Shown: in pieces, positions 1,857 through 11,299 of the stretch
How the letters are laid out: each line of letters begins with the position of its first letter
How positions within the stretch are numbered: position 1 is the stretch's first letter
From: a virus
Reading direction: 5' to 3' (one strand)
Length of the DNA stretch: 37,905 bases
IMG/VR virus record: IMGVR_UViG_3300045141_000102
Span: 1 to 37,905 of that record
The notes under the pieces: generated by a model
What the model saw: only the letters and a program-made list of their open reading frames with translations
Database searches by the model: none
Told to the model about the DNA's origin: nothing
Made by a program: the position numbers and the translations under genes

Positions 1857-1926
1857 TCTATTGTTCATTCACAGAATGACATCACTCGCACAAATCACTG
1901 CTCTCTTTTTTTATAAAAACCAAGTA

Positions 1927-1991
1927 GGCAATCGTTGGAAATGTGGTTTCTACGAGAGTAGTGTCCATGTGCGACCAACGGTTGCCTTTTT
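1927..1991 (+). terminator. Stem-loop with U-tract in the leader of the replication operon (possible attenuator)
   Basis: GGCAATCGTTGG (1927-1938) pairs with CCAACGGTTGCC (1975-1986) over 12 bp with one U-G wobble, and TTTTT follows directly (1987-1991). An inner hairpin CTAC-GAGA-GTAG (1950-1961) has a GNRA tetraloop. It lies between the rightward promoter and the initiator start codon at 2006, so it can act as a transcription attenuator or as a stabilising 5' structure. Confidence 0.65.
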
Positions 1992-2005
1992 GGTGTAAAA
2001 TTATT

Positions 2006-3143: not shown

Positions 3144-3252
3144 CTTTATTTCTATTACACTGTAATATTATATTAAGAGGGTAGTAATAAAGACTAGACC
3201 TGTAGATAACTCAAGAAAGTACCGTAAAAAACAGCTAAGTTAAGCTAGAATA

Positions 3253-3360
3253 AAGAGATGGAGTATTCAATCTTTTCATTCTGGGTTAACCCCAGTAAGG
3301 ATTCTCTGCCCGTCATGGACGGCTGACGCTATTTACGGCGGGCAGGGTCTCCTGTCTCTT
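3253..3360 (+). ncRNA. Structured leader RNA upstream of the Cys-rich gene
   Basis: The 3144-3381 stretch has no gene. Its second half folds: AAGAGATGGAG (3253-3263) pairs with CTCCTGTCTCTT (3349-3360) with one bulge and one wobble. Inside are CTGGG-TTAAC-CCCAG (3281-3295) and CTGCCCG (3306-3312) with CGGGCAG (3339-3345). The inner part of the last stem has two mutually exclusive hairpins, CCGTC/GACGG (3310-3322) and CGTCA/TGACG (3311-3328), the kind of alternative pairing a switch would use. The closing stem ends 21 nt before ATG 3382. No known riboswitch class was recognised. Confidence 0.55.
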
Positions 3361-3381: not shown

Positions 3382-3594
3382 ATGACAATAACATTAGAAC
3401 AATTAGGGATAAAAAGCCCTACAGAGTTTATTAAAAACGAATTAGGAGAAATAGATGTTAACCCTATTACCGGTAAACTGTCAGACTATCACTTAGAGAA
3501 TTGCAATGGTTGTTCTCTTTGCGAGAAGTTTTGTCCTGAAAATAATTGTGGTAATCCTATTTGTTGCGATGAGGAACGATGTAATGAACACTAA
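3382..3594 (+). CDS. Small cysteine-rich metal-binding protein
   Basis: The 70-aa product has ten cysteines in its second half, ordered NCNGCSLCEKFCPENNCGNPICCDEERC. The CxxCxxCxxxCP order recalls ferredoxin-type Fe-S ligands but the spacing is not a clean match, so zinc binding is equally likely. The first 35 residues (MTITLEQLGIKSPTEFIKNELGEIDVNP) look globular. It follows a structured leader RNA and overlaps the next gene. Function unknown. Confidence 0.65.
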   Translation: MTITLEQLGIKSPTEFIKNELGEIDVNPITGKLSDYHLENCNGCSLCEKFCPENNCGNPICCDEERCNEH

Positions 3595-3871
3595 TATGTT
3601 AATAACCTACGATAAAATTACCGATAAGCAAATAAATTATCTTCTCTGGCAGATAAAGAAGATACTCAACGGAGATATTGGAAGCGATGAAACACAGAAG
3701 ATAGCGTTAGATTTATTCCCCGAAGATATAGAGAACGGAGTAAATAAGGTCTGGTTACATGCTGAGGAGAAGTTAAGAGAATTAACAAAAGATGAGGCAA
3801 GCGGAGTAATACAATTATTCTACGATGAAAAAGTAGATGAGGGATTTAATCAACTTATAACTATTTTATGA
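3584..3871 (+). CDS. Hypothetical acidic protein
   Basis: I place the start at 3584 (MNTNMLITYDKITDKQINYLL) because GAGGA (3571-3575) lies 8 nt before it; a longer frame from 3506 would run inside the preceding gene and has no such site. The 95-aa product is helical and acidic, with no recognisable motif. Its TGA overlaps the next ATG (ATGA at 3868), which couples it to the repeat-protein gene downstream. Confidence 0.6.
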   Translation: MNTNMLITYDKITDKQINYLLWQIKKILNGDIGSDETQKIALDLFPEDIENGVNKVWLHAEEKLRELTKDEASGVIQLFYDEKVDEGFNQLITIL

Positions 3872-4647
3872 TTTCATACTTAGGAAAAACAAAACTAAAG
3901 ACGATGTTCGTGAAAGAGATTGAGAATCATCGTAAATTAGATATGATTATTCAAGGTACGTATGGTCAAGAGAATGGCACATGGAAAGGCTGTGCGGTAG
4001 GTTGTTCTATTCACTCATTAAATATCAAACTGAAAAAGAATTACTCAACATCAGACCATTCGGTGTATGAGAAAGAACTTGGTATCCCTGAATGGCTTGC
4101 GAGGTTAGAAGATATTATCTTTGAAGGATTGAGTGTTGAGGAATCAAAGAAATGGCCTGAACAATTTGCTAAGGCTATTCCTGTTGGTGTGAATCTTGAA
4201 CCAGTGAAATGGAAGTTCTGTGCGTTTATTCTCAAAGAGAATATCGAACTAGTTTTAACCTTAAAGATTAGTGACGAATTGAAGAAACAAGTAGTTGATT
4301 CTATTCGTGGGGTTTTGAGATTGAATGAGTCGGCTATCAAAACTGGTATTTGGGACGATTCAGCAGCAGAGTCAGCAGCAAGGTCAGCAGAGTCAGCAGC
4401 AAGGTCAGCAGCATGGTCAGCAGAGTCAGCAGCAGAGTCAGCAGAGTCAGCAGCAAGGTCAGCAGCATGGTCAGCAGAGTCAGCAGCAAGGTCAGCAAGG
4501 TCAGCAGCATGGTCAGCAGCATGGTCAGCAGAGTCAGCAGCAAGGTCAGCAGAGTCAGCAGCATGGTCAGCAGAGTCAGCAGCAAGGTCAGCAGCATATA
4601 CGAAATACGCCAAAGAATTATTAAGATTAATTAAATTACAAAAATAA
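3868..4647 (+). CDS. Protein with a globular N-domain and an Ala/Ser repeat tail
   Basis: Residues 1-164 form a globular domain with KGCAVGCSIHS, YEKELGIPEWLARLEDIIFEGL and FAKAIPVGVNLEPV. From memory this is a widespread uncharacterised family in phages and bacteria that often ends in Ala-rich repeats. Residues 165-243 are a repeat of SAAx and SAx units where x is E, R or W. The last residues (YTKYAKELLRLIKLQK) form a charged helix. An Ala-rich repeat of this kind would be helical, with R/E/W on a regular face. No function is known. The N-domain Cys and His residues could be functional but no catalytic signature was recognised. Confidence 0.75.
   Translation: MISYLGKTKLKTMFVKEIENHRKLDMIIQGTYGQENGTWKGCAVGCSIHSLNIKLKKNYSTSDHSVYEKELGIPEWLARLEDIIFEGLSVEESKKWPEQFAKAIPVGVNLEPVKWKFCAFILKENIELVLTLKISDELKKQVVDSIRGVLRLNESAIKTGIWDDSAAESAARSAESAARSAAWSAESAAESAESAARSAAWSAESAARSARSAAWSAAWSAESAARSAESAAWSAESAARSAAYTKYAKELLRLIKLQK
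4360..4596 (+). repeat. Repeat array 1: TCA GCA (GCA) + AGG/GAG/TGG
   Basis: The 237-bp array is built from TCA GCA GCA N or TCA GCA N, where N is AGG (R), GAG (E) or TGG (W). Twenty-two units are present in irregular order, and the last ends in TAT. The constant codons hardly vary while the third codon changes, so the variation is non-synonymous. Several other frames stay open only because the repeat contains no stop; these are shadows. Confidence 0.85.
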
Positions 4648-5219: not shown

Positions 5220-5471
5220 ATGAACTCAATTACCATTCGCAAGCCGTTATACTCAAACTTCTGTTATATCCGTGACCGTGTATTATTCGAGGCTATCCGT
5301 AATGGTAATCAGTTAAAAGTAATCGTCCCCAATGGTTCAGCAATCATAGACCCACAAGAATGGATTAGAACAGGTAAGAAAATGGAGAAGGTGTTCAAGA
5401 TAAAAAATAGGCCGATGCAATTGTGGGGAAATTATCTACCGATAAATGAAAACCAAGATGCAATGTTATGA
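5220..5471 (+). CDS. Hypothetical protein
   Basis: The 83-aa product (MNSITIRKPLYSNFCYIRDRVLFEAIRNG) has alternating hydrophobic stretches suggesting a small alpha/beta fold, and no recognised motif. It begins one base after the SSB-like gene stops (TAG-T-ATG) and ends in an ATGA overlap with the next gene. DNA-metabolism context only. Confidence 0.6.
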   Translation: MNSITIRKPLYSNFCYIRDRVLFEAIRNGNQLKVIVPNGSAIIDPQEWIRTGKKMEKVFKIKNRPMQLWGNYLPINENQDAML

Positions 5472-5608
5472 AAAAATGTAAACATAGTTATACCGATATA
5501 ATTGAAATAAAAATTATAGAACCAAAAATCATCTGGAAAATAGTAGTATGTAGTAAATGCCTTAAAGAAAAAAAGACAATATCATTCTACAAAAATGAAA
5601 CCCTATAA
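5468..5608 (+). CDS. Tiny zinc-binding protein
   Basis: This 46-aa frame (MKKCKHSYTDIIEIKIIEPK ... VVCSKCLKEKKTISFYK) was found by hand. CKH at the N-terminus and CSKC further on can together form a small zinc ribbon, separated by a beta-rich stretch. It overlaps the gene before it by ATGA and the next gene by 14 nt, a tightly coupled position that supports it being real. Function unknown. Confidence 0.6.
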   Translation: MKKCKHSYTDIIEIKIIEPKIIWKIVVCSKCLKEKKTISFYKNETL

Positions 5609-6068
5609 ACCAAAAGAATCAAAGTGGTATCTAACCTTAATATGGGTCTACTTTTTCATCACCCTTACTATCCTCGCTGTAATGATTTGGTTCGCACCTA
5701 GAGCTGCAAGTATGCCCGATACCCCATCTAACGCCGTAGGCACCTTAAAATCGGTTTTTCAGACTATACGGATAGGTACGGTTACCGCTTATAGCTCTGA
5801 AATAGGTCAAACAGATACTACGCCATTTATTACCGCTTCTGGCAAATCTGTGCGCAATAGTATTATAGCCAATAATTGCTTGAAATTTGGTACAGAAGTT
5901 GGTGTATATCAAGGTACTCTGCGCAATGGTGATAAAGTATTTAAGGTATATGATGTTGAAGATAGAATGAACCGACGATTTGACTGCTCTCACTACGATA
6001 TCTGGAATCAAAATAAAACTGAAGCATTAAAGTTCGGTAAGCAAAAGTTAGAAATAAGAATACTATAA
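5595..6068 (+). CDS. Membrane-anchored 3D-domain (cell-wall active) protein
   Basis: Residues about 12-34 form one transmembrane helix (WYLTLIWVYFFITLTILAVM), followed by a linker. From about residue 57 is a 3D (Asp-Asp-Asp) double-psi beta-barrel domain: GTVTAYSSEIGQTDTTPFITASGKSV, then VYDVEDRMNRRFDCSHYDIW and ALKFGKQKLEIRIL. The three domain aspartates appear as D in GQTD, D in VYDVEDRM and D in HYDIW. Such domains belong to the RlpA/MltA-like superfamily and act on peptidoglycan. An outward-facing anchored form could remodel the wall during infection or help lysis. It is unusual that this lies in the rightward replication operon rather than next to the M23 lysin. Confidence 0.75.
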   Translation: MKPYKPKESKWYLTLIWVYFFITLTILAVMIWFAPRAASMPDTPSNAVGTLKSVFQTIRIGTVTAYSSEIGQTDTTPFITASGKSVRNSIIANNCLKFGTEVGVYQGTLRNGDKVFKVYDVEDRMNRRFDCSHYDIWNQNKTEALKFGKQKLEIRIL

Positions 6069-6069
6069 T

Positions 6070-6444
6070 ATGTTTTGGAAAAAATATAAACCAAGTCACA
6101 TTGAGAATATATACGATATTCTTACGGCAAATAAATTAACCATTCCACCAACCGAAGAAGTCTCCTGTTCTGTATGTAAACACCGTATCTTAAAATCAGA
6201 TGCTAAGACGGTTAAGGGAGATGAAGTTTCCGTTGATAGAAAACCATTAGTAATAGGAAATATTGGAGATTCTGTTTACTATTGTCCTGAACACAAACCA
6301 CCGTATGATGAGACTAGAATGTGTTATCCGTCTGAATGTTTAGTCGGTGGAATTGGCTGTACAGGACAGCACAAAAGAAAATACTACAAAATAATCCCCG
6401 AACATAAAGTAGAAGTAGACGAGAAAGGAAAAGAAATTAAATGA
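6070..6444 (+). CDS. Cys-rich zinc-ribbon protein
   Basis: The 124-aa product has SCSVCKHRILKSDAK near residue 33, YYCPEHK near residue 76, and MCYPSEC...GIGCTGQHKRK further on. The CxxC/CxxH pairing suggests a treble-clef or ribbon zinc site. It begins one base after the 3D gene and overlaps the next gene by ATGA. No enzyme signature seen; function unknown. Confidence 0.6.
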   Translation: MFWKKYKPSHIENIYDILTANKLTIPPTEEVSCSVCKHRILKSDAKTVKGDEVSVDRKPLVIGNIGDSVYYCPEHKPPYDETRMCYPSECLVGGIGCTGQHKRKYYKIIPEHKVEVDEKGKEIK

Positions 6445-6647
6445 AACCCCTCACCTCAAAACAAGAAACAGTATTAAACTATATACAGCACTTTCAAGAT
6501 GAGTATACTATGACACCCTCACTAACTCAAATAGCAATTCGGTTTAATTTTACGAAGACTTCAGCGAGATGGCATGTAAACCAGTTAGTGAAGAAGAAGA
6601 AGTTGAAACAAAATAAGAAAGAGTACCGGAAGTTCTTGATAAAATAG
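6441..6647 (+). CDS. LexA-type winged-helix DNA-binding protein
   Basis: The 68-aa product is almost only a LexA N-terminal-like winged helix: LTSKQETVLNYIQHFQDEYTMTPSLTQIAIRFNFTKTSARWHVNQLVKKKKLKQ. The pattern 'LT.kQ..VL.yI......PsltqIA..f......arwHv..L.kk..l' is the LexA DNA-binding family. There is no cleavage or dimerisation domain, so it would be a small transcription regulator. It stands just before the structured RNA region at 6659-6906 and may control phage transcription. Confidence 0.7.
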   Translation: MKPLTSKQETVLNYIQHFQDEYTMTPSLTQIAIRFNFTKTSARWHVNQLVKKKKLKQNKKEYRKFLIK

Positions 6648-6658
6648 TCCTTTGAGAA

Positions 6659-6906
6659 GATAGTGAGTTTCGTGAGATGGGACTGATATGCAATCTGATG
6701 TGGATTCAGGATTGTAATAGTCCACGCCCGTCTCACATAGCTCATTATCTAAGTGGTCTGGGTCTTACGGTTAAGTCACGGGACAATGTGCGGAACAGTC
6801 ATCGTGGTAACATCGAGCTTAACTGATGAACAAATGACGTCAACAAAATCATCGGGAGCTAACAAGCCTTGCTCAACGATTCCGCCCGTAAGACTTAGCC
6901 CACTTA
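6659..6906 (+). ncRNA. Large two-domain structured RNA
   Basis: The gap 6648-6928 holds no gene but two adjacent long stems. Stem A: 6659-6681 with 6727-6749, 23 positions with three G-U pairs and two mismatches, capped by inner pairs GGACT/AGTCC and CAATCTGA/TCAGGATTG. Stem B: 6750-6770 with 6886-6906, 21 positions with two G-U pairs and one mismatch. It encloses GCGGAA/TTCCGC and GAGCTT..TGATGA/TCATCG..GAGCT. The two stems touch at 6749/6750 and could stack. Wobble-preserving pairing implies selection on RNA. Stem B ends 22 nt before ATG 6929. I recognised no known RNA family. Confidence 0.75.
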
Positions 6907-6928
6907 ACAATCCTAATTAAAAGAGTAT

Positions 6929-7249
6929 ATGAAAAAAGAAACGTCATTAGAACTCACTGCCGAGTTTACTGGCACTGGTTCACCATCTTCCCTCCCTTTC
7001 GAGGTTGGCGAGAAGTATTTTATCCGCACGGTTACTTACTTTGCTACAGGCAAGGTTAAGAAAATTGTGGGCAAGTTCCTTGTGTTAGAGGATGCCGCAT
7101 GGGTTGCTGATACTGGTCGTTTCAGTGGAGCAATCAACGAAGGAGTTTTGAATGAGGTTGAGCCAGTAGAAGTTGAGATGTATCTTAATGTCGATTCAAT
7201 AACAGATGCTTTCCAATGGAAGCATCCGCTTCCTCGTGAACAAAAATAG
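6929..7249 (+). CDS. Conserved phage protein of the 'DTGRF' type
   Basis: The 106-aa product contains GEKYFIRTVTYFATGKVKKI, VLEDAAWVADTGRFSGAI and LNEVEPVEVEMYLNVDSITDAFQW. From memory this matches an uncharacterised phage family usually encoded near DUF6948 proteins, as here (8009-8377, with the HNH gene between). It is beta-rich with no catalytic signature. AAAAGAG lies just upstream of ATG 6929, which follows the structured RNA by 22 nt, so that RNA is its leader. Function unknown. Confidence 0.7.
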   Translation: MKKETSLELTAEFTGTGSPSSLPFEVGEKYFIRTVTYFATGKVKKIVGKFLVLEDAAWVADTGRFSGAINEGVLNEVEPVEVEMYLNVDSITDAFQWKHPLPREQK

Positions 7250-7250
7250 T

Positions 7251-7765
7251 ATGCCAAGGGGTATTTACCAAGGTAATAAGGGGAAGAAACTATCAGAAGA
7301 ATCCAAAGTAAAAATTGGTAATGCTTCTCGTGGAAGAAAATACTCAAAGAAAATTAGAGAAAGATTTAGTAAATCTCAAATTGGGAACAAACACAATCTT
7401 GGCAAACACCATTCAGAAGAAACAAGAAATAAAATCAGACTTGCTCACTTAGGAAAAACATCTGATAAAAAATCATTATCAAAAATGGGCTTACACAATC
7501 CGAATTGGAAGGGCGGGATAACGCCAATAAATAAAAGGATTAGATGTTCAAGGGAGTTTAAGTTATGGCGTGAGGCAGTTTTTGAACGAGATAGGTATAC
7601 TTGTGTTTGGTGCGGTATAAAGGGAGGAGAATTACACCCAGACCATATTAAGCCATTCGCTTACTTCCCTGAACTGCGATTTGCTATAGATAACGGTCGA
7701 ACTCTGTGTGCTAACTGCCATAGAACTACAGATACATGGGGATTTAAGAGAGCAGAAGTAATCAT

Positions 7766-7769
<4 letters not shown>
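7251..7769 (+). CDS. NUMOD3-HNH homing endonuclease
   Basis: The product from ATG 7251 (MPRGIYQGNKGKKLSEESK) is 172 aa. NUMOD3-like repeats occupy about residues 10-85 (GKKLSEESKVKIGNASRG, GKHHSEETRNKIRLAHLG). The HNH core follows: WREAVFERDRYTCVWCGIKGG, LHPDHIKPF, NGRTLCANCHRTTDTWG, with CxxC, the DH pair and CxxCH all intact. It has inserted between two genes normally close together. It ends at TGA 7767-7769, which overlaps the ATG of the array-2 frame. If that TGA were read through, the same frame would continue as an uninterrupted Gly-Arg repeat to TAA 7986-7988. Confidence 0.8.
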
Positions 7770-7972
<203 letters not shown>

Positions 7973-7979
7973 ACACACA

Positions 7980-8012
7980 CCCCCTTAAAGGATTAAAGAA
8001 AAAGAGATATGA
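7980..8012 (+). repeat. 33-nt direct repeat, copy 1
   Basis: Starts ccccctTAAAGGATTAAAG and ends AAAAAGAGATATGA; identical over 33 nt to 8681-8713. It follows array 2, contains the stop of the Gly-Arg frame (TAA 7986-7988), and supplies the ribosome-binding region (AAAGAG) and start codon of the DUF6948-type gene at 8009. Confidence 0.9.
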
Positions 8013-8377
8013 AATATCCTAAATCATTGAAGATAGACGGCGTGGAGTATATCCCTGCGTCCTCTGTCAAGGAGAAAGCTGAGGACTTGGATGGTATGGA
8101 CTATGTGATTGTCCGCACTTATTCCGCTGGCGTATTCGCTGGCTATCTAAAATCACGAAAAGATAAAGAGGTTGTTTTGGTTAATGCCCGTAGATTGTGG
8201 TACTGGACTGGTGCTGCAAGTCTTTCACAACTTGCAATGGAGGGAGTAACCAAACCAACTGAATGTAAGTTTTCTATGGAGGTTAATTCAATAACCTTAA
8301 CCGAAGCAATCGAAGTTATTGAGGCTACCGAAGAAGCTAAAGAATCCATTGATTCAGTAACTATATGGAAAGTTTAA
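8009..8377 (+). CDS. DUF6948-type conserved phage protein
   Basis: The 122-aa product carries DYVIVRTYSAGVFAGYLKSR, VVLVNARRLWYWTGAASLSQ, LAMEGVTKPTECKF and a C-terminal ILTEAIEV-like segment (SITLTEAIEVIEATEEAKES), which from memory are the signatures of DUF6948, an uncharacterised phage family. The compact, nearly invariant 'RRLWYW.GAASLSQLA' stretch suggests a binding surface. The Shine-Dalgarno region comes from the 33-nt repeat. Its last 13 nt overlap the start of the Gly-rich repeat gene. Companion genes upstream (6929) and downstream (8365) look like a recurring cassette. Function unknown. Confidence 0.75.
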   Translation: MKYPKSLKIDGVEYIPASSVKEKAEDLDGMDYVIVRTYSAGVFAGYLKSRKDKEVVLVNARRLWYWTGAASLSQLAMEGVTKPTECKFSMEVNSITLTEAIEVIEATEEAKESIDSVTIWKV

Positions 8378-8679
8378 TCACTGAAGAACAAATGAAAGGA
8401 ATTGGCTCTGGCTCTGGCGATGGCTATAGCGATGGCTATGGCTCTGGCTCTGGCGATGGCTCTGGCTCTGGCTCTGGCTCTGGCTATGGCTATGGCGAAG
8501 GCTATGGCTCTGGCTATGGCTATAGCGATGGCTCTGGCTATGGCGATGGCTATGGCTCTGGCTCTGGCTATGGCTATAGCGAAGGCTATGGCTCTGGCTC
8601 TGGCGATGGCTCTGGCTCTGGCTCTGGCTATGGCGAAGGCTATAGCGAAGGCGATGGCGATGGCTCTGGCTATGGCTAA
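8365..8679 (+). CDS. Gly-Ser/Tyr/Asp/Glu repeat protein
   Basis: The 104-aa product starts MESLITEEQMKGIG and is then entirely Gly-x dipeptides, x = Ser, Tyr, Asp or Glu, ending GSGYG. It is predicted to be disordered and acidic. Ser replaces Gly only in the motif Tyr-Ser-Asp/Glu (four times or more), so the pattern is not random. It starts 13 nt inside the DUF6948-type gene, so it is coupled to it; a second ATG at 8392 is possible. From memory, Gly-rich proteins of this sort accompany DUF6948 genes in other phages. Function unknown; a phase-separating or surface-sticky role would be speculation. Confidence 0.65.
   Translation: MESLITEEQMKGIGSGSGDGYSDGYGSGSGDGSGSGSGSGYGYGEGYGSGYGYSDGSGYGDGYGSGSGYGYSEGYGSGSGDGSGSGSGYGEGYSEGDGDGSGYG
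8404..8678 (+). repeat. Repeat array 3: GGC + TCT/TAT/GAT/GAA
   Basis: About 46 hexamers of GGC (rarely AGC) followed by TCT, TAT, GAT or GAA. The AGC codon always follows TAT and precedes GAT or GAA. As in array 1 one codon is constant and the other is drawn from a small set, with amino-acid-changing variation. Other frames (Ala-Met/Leu, and antisense Ser-His/Gln) are open only as a by-product. Confidence 0.85.
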
Positions 8680-8680
8680 C

Positions 8681-8713
8681 CCCCCTTAAAGGATTAAAGA
8701 AAAAGAGATATGA
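8681..8713 (+). repeat. 33-nt direct repeat, copy 2
   Basis: Identical to 7980-8012, starting two bases after the stop of the array-3 gene. It gives the ribosome-binding region of the following small membrane protein. One extra C precedes it. Both copies follow a low-complexity array. Confidence 0.9.
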
Positions 8714-8716
8714 CTT

Positions 8717-8908
8717 ATGAACAAAAAGAAAATAAATCAATGGTTCTTTCTACTTCGATTCATTGCGCTACTTGCTATTGTGGTGTGGGTAAGTTGGGTA
8801 ATAAGTTTAAGGACAGGTATGGTGATGTTTGGGAACGAACAGATGCCTTTACTGTTCGTAGGATTTCTGATGGGAATGTTGGCGGGTGGTTTGGAGGACA
8901 AGGATTAA
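8717..8908 (+). CDS. Small two-helix membrane protein
   Basis: The 63-aa product has a basic start (MNKKKINQW), two hydrophobic segments (FFLLRFIALLAIVVWVSWVISL and MPLLFVGFLMGMLAGGL) joined by a short loop, and an acidic end (EDKD), the shape of a small inner-membrane hairpin protein. An overlapping frame from 8710 to 8919 (MTYEQKENKSMVL ... GGQGLTPA, 69 aa) starts with better spacing to AAAGAG and also looks protein-like (KFKDRYGDVWERTDAFTVRRISDG). I prefer the membrane frame for its clear topology, but both could be translated. Confidence 0.5.
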   Translation: MNKKKINQWFFLLRFIALLAIVVWVSWVISLRTGMVMFGNEQMPLLFVGFLMGMLAGGLEDKD

Positions 8909-9021
8909 CTCCCGCCTAACCCCTTTTTTGAAGAACTCCCTATCAACTAACGGATAATAATAAGATATGAACCTAACCAGCTTATTCACTAACTTGAGAT
9001 AAGGACTAATTAGACTTAAAA

Positions 9022-10865: not shown

Positions 10866-10911
10866 ATATTTTTTATTTACTTATTAAGTAATTCGGCCTT
10901 TTAAGGTTGGG

Positions 10912-10989
10912 ATTGAGGGGAGAGGGTTTTGCACGGGGCGGTCGGGAATGACCGTAGGTGGGCGTAGTGTGGGATTCTCTCCCCTCAAT
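10912..10989 (-). terminator. Long GC-rich stem-loop downstream of the 62-aa gene
   Basis: ATTGAGGGGAGAG (10912-10924) and CTCTCCCCTCAAT (10977-10989) form a perfect 13-bp stem. An inner CGGTC/GACCG hairpin lies at 10939-10954. The stem starts 5 nt after the stop codon of the leftward gene at 10995. No U-tract directly follows on the minus strand, so it may be a terminator without T-run, a 3'-stabilising structure or a processing site. A near-palindrome (TTACTTATTAAGTAA) lies at about 10876-10890. Confidence 0.55.
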
Positions 10990-10994
10990 GGGTT

Positions 10995-11183
10995 TCAAGG
11001 AGCGTCGAGCTTGATTGCGATGCGGTGTCCGCCAAGTTTAATTGCCTCGACGTGTACGTTCGGGCGCTTCTTCATCAGAAATGCCCATTGGTGCATTGCG
11101 TCATCGTCTGGTGAGACGATAGGCGTGGTAACGAACTTTTTGGAGTTAGCCTCCATTGCCTCGACAATCAATATCAGTTGCAT
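10995..11183 (-). CDS. GC-richer small protein between two stem-loops (moron-like)
   Basis: The 62-aa product (MQLILIVEAMEANSKKFVTTPIVSPDDDAMHQWAFLMKKRPNVHVEA ... HRIAIKLDAP) has the clearest Shine-Dalgarno in the window (AAGGAGAAGCC before ATG 11183). It is predicted alpha/beta. By eye the gene is about half G+C, clearly richer than the AT-rich flanks. It sits between the holin-like genes, flanked by a 15-bp-stem leader (11201-11288) and a 13-bp-stem element (10912-10989). These are the marks of a 'moron', an added self-contained unit. No family recognised. Confidence 0.7.
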   Translation of the reverse strand: MQLILIVEAMEANSKKFVTTPIVSPDDDAMHQWAFLMKKRPNVHVEAIKLGGHRIAIKLDAP

Positions 11184-11200
11184 GGCTTCTCCTTATGTTA

Positions 11201-11288
11201 GTCGTCTATAGCTCGGCTCAAAGCGTCGATATTTTAAGCCGAGTATATCCCCTATGAAGAGATATTGCTCTTTCGAGCTATAGACGAC
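11201..11288 (-). ncRNA. Three-way-junction leader RNA
   Basis: A perfect 15-bp stem (GTCGTCTATAGCTCG 11201-11215 with 11274-11288) encloses two hairpins on the minus strand: AAGAG-CAATAT-CTCTT and CTCGGCT...AGCCGAG. The second competes with the inner end of the closing stem (shared CGAG), so two folds are possible. The element ends 17 nt before ATG 11183 and just before its AAGGAG site. Known riboswitch signatures were not seen. Confidence 0.65.
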
Positions 11289-11299
11289 CAACGAAAGAA

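Follow-up and report, generated by a model that had tools for sequence, protein, structure and literature searches.

The virus record IMGVR_UViG_3300045141_000102 of IMG/VR, 37,905 bases in length and analyzed whole (the window), has the main genes of the stretch from ~2 to 10.3 kb on the + strand and its structural genes on the other strand. Within this early region, an element of ~250 nucleotides (nt) lies between a short gene for a LexA-like protein, whose stop codon is 11 nt upstream of it, and a gene for a 106-amino acid protein, whose ATG is 23 nt downstream (Table 1). The G+C content of the element is 46%, compared with 38% for the window. A first-pass annotation, made from the letters alone, had proposed that this stretch is a structured RNA of two domains and that no protein gene is located there. 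We likewise found no credible gene inside the element, the only long + strand open reading frame (ORF; 6753-6920, GTG start, 55 amino acids) being without a relative. The annotation had also drawn attention to the LexA-type regulator that precedes the element. This gene is indeed adjacent, its product having no protease part and resembling LexA in the DNA-binding domain only, but nothing ties the regulator to the RNA: the LexA site GAACNNNNGTTC is absent, and CTGT-N8-ACAG is not enriched. A search of 5400-9000 for intrinsic terminators (G+C-rich stem, short loop, T run) found none, the element itself is without a terminator U-run, and promoter-like sites near it occur at chance level only.

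The element is built on two long imperfect stems of the + strand that meet at adjacent bases. Stem A (6659-6681 with 6727-6749) is paired at 21 of its 23 positions, with three G-U pairs (6663/6745, 6668/6740 and 6678/6730) and two mismatches (U-U at 6670/6738 and C-A at 6671/6737). Stem B (6750-6770 with 6886-6906) is paired at 20 of 21 positions, with G-U pairs at 6760/6896 and 6761/6895 and a single U-U mismatch at 6757/6899. Checked pair by pair, the extents of both stems and the totals of five G-U pairs and three mismatches agree with the first-pass annotation, as does its statement that both stems enclose further pairs, which are a hairpin at 6685-6722 inside stem A and pairings at 6790-6795/6880-6885 and 6816-6829/6849-6860 inside stem B. 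The two stems touch at base 6750, for which 6658 and 6906 are alternative partners. In the predicted folds, domain A (93 nt) has the stem 6658-6669/6739-6750 plus 6672-6681/6727-6736 on either side of a 2 × 2 internal loop, and the inner pairs of domain B (157 nt) are of lower certainty in the ensemble. Just 3' of stem B the bases are largely unpaired, and the ribosome site and start codon of the downstream gene lie outside the stems.

To compare the fold with chance, we folded a 286-nt segment (6640-6925) and its shuffles. The + strand gave a minimum free energy (MFE) of -96.9 kcal/mol (z-score of -6.03), which none of 200 shuffles equaled, and the - strand was weaker (z-score of -2.98). We also searched 800 dinucleotide shuffles of the entire 37.9-kb window for abutting pairs of stems of comparable quality (20-position stems with at least 17 positions paired and at least 15 Watson-Crick pairs) and found none. 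A shuffled window has about one lone stem of such quality, and it is therefore the pair, its placement and its fold energy that exceed chance. Taken together, these data show a real, strongly folded two-stem element between two early genes, and its nature as an RNA structure is well supported.

No known RNA family was recognized in the element, which the first-pass annotation had called novel-looking. Rfam 15 gave no match in the window at the gathering cut-off, and at E values up to 10 the only nearby match was to twister-P1, on the opposite strand at 6986-7062 and far under the cut-off. An intron of group I or II with a homing endonuclease was rejected as a candidate: no Rfam intron model matched 6400-7200 at E values up to 10, and the HNH/NUMOD3 gene at 7206-7769 is separated from the RNA by the 106-amino acid gene. 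A transfer RNA or transfer-messenger RNA was rejected as well, with no ARAGORN prediction in the window. Homologues of the RNA were sought by blastn in phages, plasmids and 50 records of relatives, by a single-sequence covariance model run over 0.98 Mb of relatives, indirectly by searching viral and genome contigs with the back-translated frame of stem B, and by scans that used the neighboring genes 6441, 6929, 8009 and 6070 and the replication gene; none of these found a relative of the RNA.

The same phage carries other elements of this kind (Table 1). The element at 1915-1996 precedes the gene with which the early operon begins (start codon at 2006), that at 3236-3352 ends 30 nt short of the start codon at 3382, and that at 11192-11298 lies just 5' of a - strand gene whose start codon is at 11183. 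Each of these three, as well as the element at 6658-6906, ends 9-30 nt before the next start codon. The remaining one, at 10908-10992, is near the end of the + strand operon, between it and the convergent - strand genes, and was scored with the + strand as its sense strand. With stems A and B counted as two, all six elements of the window have the lower z-score on the sense strand, a count that is not free of selection, as the elements were found partly by searches of the + strand. We detected no sequence similarity among the elements and no shared motif beyond what shuffles give. At 8401-8650 the structure signal is stronger still, but we did not accept it as RNA because it arises from a coding hexamer repeat.

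Table 1. Long-stemmed elements of the window and the genes that flank the 6658-6906 element. MFE values are in kcal/mol.
Feature	Positions	Strand	Description	z-score on +	z-score on -	MFE
Upstream gene	6441-6647	+	68-amino acid protein with LexA-type DNA-binding domain (Pfam PF01726, E value of 4.7e-9)			
Domain A	6658-6750	+	Long imperfect stem closing hairpin 6685-6722	-7.6	-4.5	-43.4
Domain B	6750-6906	+	Stem 6751-6770/6886-6905 closing a branched interior	-4.9	-3.1	-53.0
Downstream gene	6929-7249	+	106-amino acid protein, no Pfam match; 20 relatives in viral contigs			
Similar element	1915-1996	+	Hairpin just 5' of start codon 2006	-7.7	-5.2	
Similar element	3236-3352	+	Two adjoining long hairpins between genes	-5.3	-3.8	
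Similar element	10908-10992	+	G+C-rich hairpin, stem of more than 20 base pairs	-7.7	-7.1	-45.2 on +, -29.7 on -
Similar element	11192-11298	-	Long stem closing three hairpins	-5.8	-10.8	

Related phages were surveyed by shape. The major capsid protein of this virus has ~23-37% identity to that of the listed phage relatives (33-34% for Bacillus phages of the genus Pagevirus) and 40-78% identity to that of most retrieved contigs of uncultured viruses; no relative was found in genome contigs that would have revealed a host by way of a prophage. In the noncoding DNA of these relatives' contigs we counted 20-position stems with a span of 70-260 nt, with a criterion that is the same for the two strands. 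There are 28 such long-span stems, two of them from the window itself, in the 88.5 kb of noncoding DNA of phages that share the capsid protein, compared with 3 in 52.6 kb for the controls (p = 6e-4, with thresholds chosen after the window had been seen and genes called simply as longest ORFs). The controls were contigs found through other genes of the window, the Bacillus phages Pascal and Page, and the Manatee Spring phages, one of which carries a distant capsid relative. Under a stricter cut, the clade's largest contigs reach 3.9 stems per 10 kb of noncoding DNA, compared with 0.33 in their own coding DNA, and the control contigs have 0.26 per 10 kb of noncoding DNA. Across the clade, too, the elements are unrelated in sequence and have no motif in common beyond chance. 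It seems that a long double-stranded stem is kept next to a gene, whatever its sequence.

Two of the annotation's points fared less well. It had taken the wobble pairs of stems A and B as a sign of selection on RNA, and on these two stems alone the argument is weak, because drift at the DNA level would make G-U and A-C pairs equally likely, and five G-U pairs against one A-C pair give a one-sided p of ~0.11. It becomes reasonable only when the imperfect sense-strand pairs of the clade are pooled for stems flanked by genes of the same direction (22 G-U and 9 A-C, p = 0.015). Similarly, the two stems of the proposed two-domain RNA are real, but they need not form a single unit. Similar stems of related phages occur alone, two together or three together (for example, three at 16421-16701 of L184 and two at 11832-12127 of L188), so that the element may consist of two independent ones in tandem. 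The noncoding long-stem clusters to which these examples belong, at 15872-16701 of L184 and 11300-12160 of L188, are strongly folded on both strands.

What such elements do may be approached through known systems. The early polycistronic mRNA of phage T7 is cleaved by RNase III at five sites (PMC4858673), and the R1.1 RNA used in assays is ~60 nt long and yields products of 47 and 13 nt (PMC4858673). Like the T7 signals, the elements described here are irregular long stems between genes of an early operon, with several per genome, and stems A and B are each about two helical turns long and lie between genes that, to judge by gene order, are co-transcribed. Unlike R1.1, the element is branched and in tandem (93 and 157 nt). 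Our preferred reading, to which we give a probability of about 0.4, is that these elements are sequence-independent, double-stranded signals for the processing and stabilization of mRNA, similar to the RNase III sites of T7. In this scheme, an early polycistronic mRNA of the + strand would include the element, where two imperfect helices of 20-24 positions, each closing a folded interior, would take up the space that separates the LexA-like gene from the one after it. Host RNase III, the presumed reader, would cut in or beside the stems and split the transcript into units, and the stems left behind might then shield the ends created by the cut, 3' on the upstream message and 5' on the downstream one, with the ribosome site of the downstream gene just outside them.

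RNase III is the best-known bacterial reader of double-stranded RNA that makes no strong sequence demand. Helices of about two turns, placed 5' of the ribosome site of the next gene, are compatible with such a role, and the lack of shared sequence or motif among the elements is expected if only double-strandedness matters. Several observations weigh against the processing signal. The interiors are branched and the sizes of 85-250 nt exceed what an RNase III site needs, and the clusters in L184 and L188 are mostly between convergent genes and not within an operon. No homologue that might show covariation was found in any collection scanned. In the comparison of fold energies across the clade, the sense strand was better in 7 cases and worse in 5, which is not significant by count, and for this reason only the six elements of the window and the pooled ratio of G-U to A-C pairs are used as evidence of strand.

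As an alternative, the early transcript might release a discrete, stable noncoding RNA of ~250 nt that acts in trans, for instance by binding host double-stranded RNA-binding proteins or defense sensors, or as a decoy for them. The large, branched and very stable fold, its G+C content above that of the surroundings and its occupation of the entire gap between two genes are in keeping with this, and there is a precedent in cabRNA, a structured phage RNA that activates the cyclic oligonucleotide-based antiphage signaling system (CBASS) and is read by a bacterial defense enzyme (PMC10686824). Both are structured phage RNAs, but the present element is intergenic and in the early region. As the promoter-like and terminator-like sites around it do not exceed chance, and as several unrelated elements per genome without conserved sequence better suit a local role, we consider a trans-acting RNA unlikely. 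The same holds for its extension to the clade, in which long-stemmed, branched intergenic RNAs without common sequence, single or in tandem, would make up a class that acts in trans by double-stranded shape alone, for instance by decoying or modulating host enzymes that bind double-stranded RNA or defense sensors. A local role of another sort, that of a riboswitch-like or protein-bound leader acting in cis on the translation or attenuation of the 106-amino acid gene, is similarly improbable in our estimation. The short distance to the start codon speaks for it, and the alternative pairings of base 6750, together with the uncertain interior of domain B, would permit switching, but the region of the ribosome site is free of stems, there is no terminator, and none of the 20 relatives of the downstream gene in viral contigs has such an RNA upstream.

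Some related elements pair almost equally well on both strands and several lie between convergent genes, as might be expected of a DNA-level inverted repeat (a cruciform, a site of recombination or replication, or the remnant of a small mobile element). The better sense-strand folds of all six window elements, the excess of G-U over A-C pairs in the clade and the absence of repeated copies in the phage or its relatives make this quite doubtful. Paired, adjoining stem-loops in an early operon also recall the put RNAs of phage HK022, which consist of two stem-loops (PMC9378689), and suggest a nascent RNA that modifies RNA polymerase for readthrough of terminators, of the put type or of the type of the eps-associated RNA (EAR). 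The put RNAs are ~70 nt long, lie near the early promoters and are similar in sequence between putL and putR (PMC9378689), whereas the element is larger, lies in mid-operon and is unlike in sequence to the phage's other elements, which occur at several places along operons; as neither the size nor the similarity between copies was found here, we regard this role as very unlikely. The least probable explanation is a chance or neutral palindrome without RNA function. The missing homologues, which would show conservation, and the frequency of lone stems in shuffled windows would fit it, but the absence of abutting pairs from 800 shuffles, the z-score of -6 and the enrichment in noncoding DNA throughout the clade do not.

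The genes around the element show features of their own. Of 25 loci in which the 6929 gene or the DUF6948 gene (8009) has a relative, 23 have a six-base tandem repeat array within 350 nt downstream, compared with 1.4% of random stretches. Such hexanucleotide-repeat ORFs, at 7786-7972 and 8401-8679 of the window and in loci L002-L021 and L035-L039, encode alternating dipeptides of the types (S-G/R/W)n and (G-S/D/Y/E)n, whose residues vary between phages. We found no mention of DUF6948 in the literature searched, and the 6929 or DUF6948 gene seems to form, together with its array, an undescribed module of two genes in which the repeat gene changes fast. The HNH endonuclease gene with a NUMOD3 motif (7206-7769) separates the 6929 gene from its array; in most related loci the array directly follows the relative of the 6929 gene, and the HNH gene has the look of an inserted homing gene. 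Another NUMOD3 gene is found at 579-1181, and 149-517 has a weak, below-cut-off HNH match. Each hexamer array is followed by a 38-nt sequence leading to the next start codon (7980-8017 and 8681-8718, two copies 95% identical). The protein of 3868-4647 has a C-terminal S/A/E/R/W repeat, with DNA periods of 9 and 12 nt, and its N terminus gives a weak, below-cut-off match to the CBASS inhibitor Acb3 (E value of 1.6e-4). Finally, direct repeats of the type ACTAGTTAAACCCCTTAAAC at 2228-2403 are inside a gene with a phage replication protein O domain and, by analogy with lambdoid phages, which carry origin iterons there, are possibly a replication origin.

Structured RNAs are usually discovered through sequence conservation and covariation, and searches in the style of Rfam miss elements such as these; a survey by shape alone can be repeated on any phage group. 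This clade apparently keeps the place and the shape of its long-stemmed RNAs while their sequence differs wholly between phages. Should they act in trans on double-stranded RNA-binding factors of the host, phages would have in them an RNA tool of a new kind. Should they be processing signals, the cutting of polycistronic messages in the manner of T7 would recur in uncultured phages far from T7.
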